DNA of 64,000 nt, from NCBI GenBank assembly GCA_023666705.1, contig JAMPBO010000014.1:1-64000 (forward strand), read 5' to 3'. The notes under the pieces were generated by a model that searched no databases, was not told the DNA's origin, and saw only the letters and a list, made by a program, of their open reading frames with translations. Origin of the DNA: Bacteroides sp. GTDB taxonomy: Bacteria; Bacillota; Clostridia; Lachnospirales; Lachnospiraceae. This document shows, piece after piece, positions 51,923 through 52,763 of this stretch. Position 1 is the first letter of the stretch, and each line of letters opens with the position of its first letter. The translations under genes and the position numbers were made by a program.

Positions 51923-52378
51923 ATGTTCATAAATTTAATTGCAGTCGGCTCCGTAAAGGAAGAATATTTTAGGGAAAAGATAGCATGGTATATAAAAAAG
52001 ATTAAAACAGCAGCAACCATAAATCTGATTGAAATTCCGGATGAGCCGATACCACAAAATGCAAAGGAGCTTATCCTTCAGAAAATCAAGCAAAAAGAGG
52101 GAGAGCGTATTCTGGAAAAAATAAAAAATACGGATTATGTTGTTGCACTGTGCATCGAGGGAGATATGGCAGACGGGCAGGAAACGTTTCAGCGTATATT
52201 CAACCGTGCAGGCAGGACGGACTGCGTTACGTTTATCATTGGCGGTTCCCTTGGATTGTCAGAACAGGTGACCTCCCGTGCAGATGATAAGCTTAGCTTT
52301 TCGCCCATGACATTTCCGCATCAGCTTATGCGGGTTATGTTGTTGGAGCGTCTGTATGCGTTTACTTGTGATAGGTAA
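51923..52378 (+). CDS. rlmH: RlmH-family 23S rRNA (pseudouridine1915-N3) methyltransferase, C-terminal tail missing
   Basis: A 151-residue SPOUT-fold protein. RlmH methylates pseudouridine 1915 in helix 69 of the 70S ribosome as a dimer. The knot that binds SAM is intact: IIGGSLGLSEQV (from residue 105) and SFSPMTFPHQLMR (to about 137). The conserved end of the family (LYRAF... to YHK or YHR) is not: after L144-Y145 the sequence reads AFTCDR and stops. The last 17 bases overlap a converging RlmH-like gene that does encode that tail. I see no simple frameshift that would restore it. Whether the protein works alone is open. Confidence 0.88.
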   Translation: MFINLIAVGSVKEEYFREKIAWYIKKIKTAATINLIEIPDEPIPQNAKELILQKIKQKEGERILEKIKNTDYVVALCIEGDMADGQETFQRIFNRAGRTDCVTFIIGGSLGLSEQVTSRADDKLSFSPMTFPHQLMRVMLLERLYAFTCDR

Positions 52379-52763
52379 TATGGTTGAGGATTGTAAATGC
52401 CCTGTAAAGCTGTTCTGTCAGGCAGACGCATGTAAGCGTCTCGTCCATACAAAACCGTGAAAGGGCAAATGAGCTGTCTGCGGCTTCAAAGGAAACTGTA
52501 TTTGACAAAAAAATTTCAATTTTTGAAAAACCGCTTACACATATATTGTTGAGCTCCGAGGCAAGTCCTGGCGAGTCAATAAACGGGGCATTTGGGTTTA
52601 CGTTTATCACATATGCACCCGGCTTTGGGCAAATATCCGCAAGGCTTTTGTGGAGCAAAAGCTTCACCCTGCAAAATGGAGATATTCGTTTGATGTATTC
52701 ATTTACGGCAGACTGAAAATCCGTATCGAGACGTCTGCCTGAAAGATGTATTTGTATTTCCAT
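52362..52763 (-). CDS. RlmH-like protein with degenerate SAM knot but intact C-terminal tail
   Basis: A 133-residue minus-strand protein starting at 52763. Its N-terminus (MEIQIHLSGRR... SAVNEYIKRISPF) follows the RlmH beta1-alpha1 pattern. Its end, EQLYRAF at 117-123 and HITYHK to 133, is the canonical RlmH tail (E. coli has LYRAW... PYHRE). Between these the SAM-knot motifs are lost: where RlmH has GGSLG this protein has SNTVS, and FPHQ is absent. The stop lies inside the 3' end of the + strand rlmH. SD is weak. It is either a decaying duplicate or a partner subunit of the + strand protein. Confidence 0.75.
   Translation of the reverse strand: MEIQIHLSGRRLDTDFQSAVNEYIKRISPFCRVKLLLHKSLADICPKPGAYVINVNPNAPFIDSPGLASELNNICVSGFSKIEIFLSNTVSFEAADSSFALSRFCMDETLTCVCLTEQLYRAFTILNHITYHK

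Follow-up and report, generated by a model that had tools for sequence, protein, structure and literature searches.

The window, i.e. the whole stretch of 64,000 nucleotides that was analysed, carries two open reading frames that meet tail to tail and that both resemble RlmH, a methyltransferase known as the product of a single gene. The locus thereby raises the question whether the two genes together encode one enzyme, whether each of them has acquired a job of its own, or whether one of them is in decay.

Two RlmH-like proteins with different parts missing

The plus-strand gene encodes a protein, here called RlmH-A (A), that contains the motifs TFIIGGSLGL and MTFPHQLMRVMLLE and ends in RLYAFTCDR: its SAM pocket is intact and its catalytic tail is gone. 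The minus-strand gene encodes a protein with the RlmH fold, RlmH-B (B), that ends in TEQLYRAFTILNHITYHK and contains neither GGSLG nor FPHQ: here the tail is present and the SAM pocket is gone (Table 1). An earlier sequence-only reading of the window had described the plus-strand protein as keeping the SAM motifs and ending in AFTCDR without a tail, the minus-strand protein as keeping the tail without GGSLG and FPHQ, and the 3' ends as overlapping by 17 bases, and all of this was borne out in the two open reading frames. Because of the tail-to-tail overlap the last codons of A lie antisense to the codons for Y-H-K in B.

Table 1. Positions of the two genes and their active-site elements in the window, and of serine recombinase genes next to rlmH in other genomes
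Feature	Position	Strand	Remarks
RlmH-A, SAM-site subunit, tail lost	51923..52378	+	151 aa
A: glycine-rich SAM bight IIGGSLGL	52235..52258	+	G103 and G107 (E. coli numbering) in 64/64 A
A: MTFPHQ, bight 3, E. coli T126-H129	52307..52324	+	T126 and H129 in 64/64 A, versus 5/65 and 1/65 B
Tail-to-tail overlap of A and B, 17 bases	52362..52378	.	last codons of A antisense to YHK of B
RlmH-B, tail-donor subunit, SAM pocket lost	52362..52763	-	133 aa
B: catalytic tail Y-H-K, E. coli Y152-H153-R154	52365..52373	-	65/65 B (Y152, H153, K/R154); the tail partly defined B
B: E-Q-L-Y-R, E. coli E138 to R142	52401..52415	-	E138 in 64/65 and R142 in 65/65 B; R142 in 14/64 A
B: K-R pair, E. coli R25-R26	52686..52691	-	K/R25 and R26 in 65/65 B; R26 in 14/64 A
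Large serine recombinase gene, G384	L301 4142..6247
Large serine recombinase gene, G535	L291 14755..16869
Large serine recombinase gene, G688	L297 3079..5220

Both proteins scored above the curated cut-off of 27 bits for PF02590 (A 138.8 bits, B 57.3 bits), so neither resemblance to RlmH is due to chance. Both stayed below the cut-off of 172 bits of the NCBIfam RlmH equivalog NF000985 (A 163.3 bits, B 48.5 bits, best model), and automatic annotation may therefore miss or misname them. The SPOUT knot fold of RlmH was present in the predicted monomer folds, B keeping the RlmH fold, and a SAM pocket and a tail within one polypeptide were found in neither A nor B, only the pair together having both. 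At the sequence level the pair jointly has every tested RlmH feature that one of the proteins lacks, the equivalog score excepted; made of RlmH-family proteins, neither of which is a canonical RlmH, A and B together should work like RlmH. The only places reported for PF02590 in the window's genome (2.86 Mb, listed as 100% complete) were A and B, and a hidden canonical copy was rejected accordingly.

The split follows the composite active site of the E. coli enzyme

The portions of Koh et al. 2017 (PMC5430550) used here describe E. coli RlmH as a homodimer with a composite site, to which one monomer brings SAM and the other its tail. The tail residues Y152-H153-R154 are essential: the variants Y152F, H153F, R154A and E138A/Q showed no detectable activity, yet were dimeric and bound SAM, R154A being in addition poor in ribosome binding. 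K11, K42 and R43 form the share of the SAM monomer in the proposed RNA surface, and R25, R26 (the pair on the RNA side of the tail donor), R142 and R154 that of the tail monomer. The second SAM site stays empty below 500 uM SAM, which makes a heterodimer with one site per dimer plausible.

We aligned 64 A, 65 B and 92 canonical proteins, with E. coli numbering and with near-identical relatives included in the counts. Since the tail was one of the features by which rows were assigned to A, B or canonical, the counts at positions 152-154 (for A 1/64 each; for B see Table 1) are partly given by construction; the other positions played no part in the hand sorting. The pocket positions G103, G107, T126 and H129 are invariant in A and G104 is kept in 63/64, versus G103 in 19/65, G104 in 1/65 and G107 in 2/65 of the B proteins (T126 and H129 in Table 1). 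The tail-side positions 26 and 142 show the converse, being invariant in B and mostly lost from A (Table 1). The split is imperfect, as A still has E138 in 55/64 and K/R25 in 30/64. The hydrophobic dimer positions 122/125/127 are kept in 65/58/59 of the 65 B proteins; B lacks a stretch of about 20 residues and has diverged further than A. At the column of E. coli K11 most canonical and A rows have a residue other than lysine, and lysine at column 12 occurs in 61/64 A versus 7/65 B. The apportioning of residues between A and B follows the composite site published for the E. coli enzyme.

We infer, for pairing, activity and substrate alike, that A and B very probably form an obligate heterodimeric RlmH with one composite active site for pseudouridine 1915 of the 23S rRNA. 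A would bring in the knot with the SAM pocket, together with its own share of the RNA surface; B, with the RlmH fold and the dimer face and no SAM pocket, would add the E138-R142-Y152 triad, H153 and K154, and would contact the RNA through K25-R26; and the A-B dimer would hold one complete site and methylate pseudouridine 1915 in helix 69. A homodimer made from one gene is predicted not to hold, as the site would be incomplete in A-A and in B-B alike: A-A would be without tails and B-B without SAM, so each gene would need the other.

The same heterodimer might act on a changed substrate, i.e. another pseudouridine or uridine in rRNA or tRNA, and the segment around E. coli K42-R43 on the RNA side is indeed missing in 62/65 B and altered in A. 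A heterodimer with a single site, however, needs this segment from the SAM subunit only, and all 65 B proteins keep R26 and K154 on the RNA side; we consider a change of substrate improbable.

No canonical rlmH found in genomes with the pair

We classed 911 different genomes (61 + 269 + 370 + 211; a non-random sample in which 37 belong to the window's genus) by their PF02590 matches at an E-value of 0.001, or 0.01 for the part of 269 genomes. At least 57 contained A and B together, a lower bound because weak B proteins below these thresholds may be missed: 30 of the 37 in the window's genus and 27 outside it, namely 15 elsewhere in the order, 10 elsewhere in the class and 2 elsewhere in the phylum. 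The other seven genomes of the genus had a single canonical gene (5) or no match (2, which are 79% and 64% complete), and the 46 genomes from other genera of the window's family listed in the 269-genome part had one match each. A tail-bearing RlmH together with B was seen in 0 of the 61 B-bearing genomes (with the same proviso on weak B proteins). For single-match genomes the tail status was taken from the match coordinates, for about the first 150 entries of three survey lists; a recheck of 76 weaker single matches showed that 75 reach profile position 154 and that one is cut by a contig end, and in every pair of the window's genus the second match runs to position 154.

Among genomes of at least 90% completeness there were 40 with the pair, 2 with only A and 2 with only B. 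All nine genomes with one partner (A in G168, G276, G284, G292 and G688; B in G105, G134, G176 and G480) are fragmented (about 110-730 contigs), yet G688 and G105 are listed as 97% and 98% complete; when the five A-only genomes were searched more sensitively with a B profile, no B was found. The second matches of various other genomes were rejected as pairs: G163 and G452 have canonical genes broken by a frameshift (L123, L276), G129 a single gene cut by two contig ends, G062 two full-length matches of which one is read across a TAA, G186 two full-length matches and a piece at a contig end, and G802 one full copy and a second copy in two adjoining pieces; the second matches of G428, G458, G522, G558, G787, G206, G178, G316, G462 and others are short 3' pieces or weak.

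A contig scan, of which 80 of 446 confirmed loci were kept, contained 12 B genes. The genomes of 9 were examined for a partner, and the other three match the survey genomes G005, G009 and G023. All nine named genomes picked in this way by their B, four of which repeat survey genomes, hold one A, one B and no canonical gene; the named carriers include Youngiibacter fragilis, Lutispora saccharofermentans and Anaerostipes sp. MSJ-23, and members of the window's own genus are labelled Lachnospiraceae or Eubacteriales bacterium. It seems that in many bacteria of the Lachnospiraceae and related groups two genes that depend on each other have taken the place of the one-gene RlmH. The co-occurrence that the sequence-only reading had proposed to test was recovered, and the combination it had named as speaking against a heterodimer, a canonical rlmH elsewhere in the genome with B decayed in relatives, was not found, B not being decayed.

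Two observations concern the distribution of B itself. A convergent A/B pair is present on L169 (SLNR01000092.1), in a metagenome-assembled genome labelled Candidatus Sumerlaeota, i.e. another phylum, which points to transfer or to a misbinned contig; and G009 carries a second, separate B gene (G009:C48:1039-1461) beside its usual pair.

The target helix and the possibility of separate functions

A string of helix 69 was searched in 14 pair genomes: six (G006, G057, G073, G166, G526 and G408) contain it exactly, and the other eight, the window's included, gave no match with up to three mismatches, the 23S rRNA there being perhaps unassembled or different in sequence. Two canonical genomes were also tried, of which G062 matched and G027 did not.

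A and B might alternatively have taken up separate new jobs, with B for instance a regulator or an RNA-binding protein and pseudouridine 1915 left unmethylated. PF02590 matches are absent from many genomes (46/295, 39/393 and 35/219, the last two samples being of at least 90% and at least 95% completeness), so the modification may be dispensable, which in the first two samples speaks for such a reading. Against it, the catalytic triad of B makes sense only beside a SAM site, A keeps the SAM pocket, the two proteins co-occur and jointly exclude canonical RlmH, and helix 69 is exact wherever it was found in the pair genomes. We hold separate jobs to be quite improbable.

Gene arrangement and selection

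Of the 30 pairs in the window's genus, 29 have both genes on the same contig; every one of these is convergent, the 3' ends ranging from an overlap of 29 bases to a distance of 109. Outside the genus, 10 further pairs and that of G913 are convergent; A and B occur in tandem, A first, in G398, G463, G526, G571, G629 and G743; and some pairs lie apart, by up to 2.3 Mb on one contig (G057). Linkage is therefore not what keeps A and B together, and the conserved convergence that the sequence-only reading had proposed to look for holds for all linked pairs of the genus and for some of the pairs elsewhere.

Within the genus, 19 comparisons (NG86, last six aligned codons dropped, dS ≥ 0.6 in all but the six closest pairs) gave dN/dS values of 0.046-0.192 for A, from 18 usable comparisons, and of 0.059-0.272 for B, from 17. 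Purifying selection acts on both genes, and neither looks decayed; with the 29 convergent pairs this led us to reject a pseudogene or an assembly artefact. The distances of A and B within the genus correlate (Mantel r 0.72, 0/2000 permutations), which is not specific evidence, since the two are inherited together.

That B is a decaying duplicate on its way to a pseudogene, and A an RlmH able to do without the tail by itself, is highly improbable: the greater divergence of B and its missing stretch, the E138 retained in most A proteins, and G688, whose assembly has a tail-cut A but lacks B, would agree with it, but it is contradicted by the selection on B, by its presence in 61 surveyed genomes, by the invariance in all 65 B proteins of R142 and R26, which were not used to recognise B, and by the inactivity of the E. 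coli tail mutants in the cited part of PMC5430550. The proposal of the sequence-only reading, a SAM-binding and a tail-donating subunit, is in this light strongly supported, by the exclusion of canonical RlmH, by selection on both genes and by the residue partition, from which the heterodimer is inferred.

Origin of the pair

A tree of 52 B with 49 canonical proteins placed B on one side of a branch with an SH-aLRT of 99; the tree came from a quick search with 13 near-duplicate B rows left out, and shared losses and long branches may have helped the grouping. B appears to be a single old lineage that occurs in many families. In a tree of the A and canonical proteins, built from the columns before E138 only, the tail state needs 11 changes, of which at least 4 are forced by well-supported branches; examples are the positions of G535 inside family f42, G431 inside f44 and G621 with f98, to which G408 with f43 can be added at weaker support. 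By this tree the A-type loss of the tail is recurrent in separate lineages. The presence of B follows tail loss in 3.9 of the 4 well-supported contrasts on average and never the opposite, although with 4 contrasts significance is out of reach (sign test p 0.125). A recurrent tail loss and a B of one lineage are at odds with one local event of duplication and inversion in the window's lineage. The origin that the sequence-only reading had suggested, by duplication, inversion and reciprocal loss, consequently found no support, pairs being also tandem or unlinked.

Some 3' junctions suggest how the tail may have been lost. In G535 (Lutispora), G408 and G688, A is nearly canonical and lacks the final Y-H-K: the junction has a stop, the last three codons are gone, and the first two dozen bases past the stop are nearly the same in the three genomes. 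The corresponding junction in G384, a genus-mate of G535, restores Y-H-R. Directly downstream of rlmH in G384, G535 and G688 lies a large serine recombinase gene (Table 1; the domains PF00239 and PF07508 were tested in G535 alone), accompanied by type I restriction genes in G535 and G688; no recombinase reading frame was seen downstream of A in G408. B lies about 14 kb downstream in both G535 and G408, and between these two genomes B is 92% and A 57% identical, their ratio of 0.135 being the most extreme among all pairs of 60 genomes (next 0.605). The B of G408 sits between IS605-type TnpB genes (L292 636-1259 and 2950-3573, the second alone tested against Pfam). G688, with its truncating junction and no B, counts against a strict rule.

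We tentatively suggest that B may be an old, horizontally transferred tail donor: some of the insertions that serine recombinases make at the 3' end of rlmH would remove the tail, B would supply it in trans, and the homodimer would repeatedly have become an obligate heterodimer, kept by vertical descent thereafter, as in the window's genus. This possible scenario finds its support in the truncating junction shared by G408 and G535 and in the identity of their B relative to that of their A.

Searches of the plasmid and phage collections (16 and 21 records) showed no B among the 10 matches listed in each, all of which span the length of canonical RlmH at less than 60% identity, and a scan of viral contigs gave 43 pattern matches and no confirmed relative. 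Short stretches resembling the 3' end of rlmH were observed beside a full rlmH at G458:C10:7347-7448, G428:C208:1-87, G522:C17:19826-19906, G558:C8:15348-15449 and G787:C1:2792850-2792945; these are possibly the far junctions of inserted elements.

Significance and comparison with known systems

If the heterodimer is real, the composite-site model of RlmH has been put to a decisive test by nature: the two halves of the active site now sit on separate genes, and selection has preserved in each gene the residues that belong to its half under the structural model. A dimer with a single active site could also decide whether one SAM site is enough for RlmH or two are required. The pair would further offer several apparently independent transitions of different age from homodimer to obligate heterodimer, in some of which an insertion at the gene's 3' end can be seen as the likely mutational cause, and it would affect annotation, both subunits falling below the RlmH equivalog cut-offs. 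The sequence-only reading knew of no described two-gene RlmH; likewise, we found neither a two-gene nor a heterodimeric RlmH in the open-licence literature, and PMC9508554 makes no mention of a heterodimer.

The closest relatives are the single-gene, homodimeric RlmH/YbeA/OrfX proteins of E. coli, B. subtilis and S. aureus, which share with A and B the fold, the PF02590 domain and the site built from a pocket and the tail of the partner, as set out in the cited part of PMC5430550; here, in contrast, the halves of the site are on two genes, each without the other half, and neither protein reaches the equivalog cut-offs.

TRM6 is a paralogue that does not bind the cofactor, and neither TRM6-TRM61 nor AdoMetDC-prozyme is a SPOUT enzyme. 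The TRM6-TRM61 tRNA m1A58 methyltransferase (PMC5007650) and the trypanosome AdoMetDC-prozyme pair, in which the prozyme is a catalytically dead paralogue (PMC6221367), are likewise two-subunit enzymes, both of them eukaryotic; the loss in A and B differs from these in being reciprocal, each partner lacking what the other supplies.

A further parallel is the yeast SPOUT pair Ygr283c/Ymr310c, for which the relevant section of PMC1829167 considers a heterodimer with one paralogue as a suspected inactive subunit, a likeness to A and B; these proteins belong, however, to another SPOUT family, COG2106, the pairing is put forward there as speculation, and that section describes no reciprocal loss within a composite site. 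With respect to the junctions, SCC elements insert at the 3' end of rlmH (excerpts of PMC10061031), the target directly downstream of which the recombinase genes lie in G384, G535 and G688; unlike in the SCC-type elements as described in those excerpts, the junction in G535, G408 and G688 carries a stop by which the tail is cut off.
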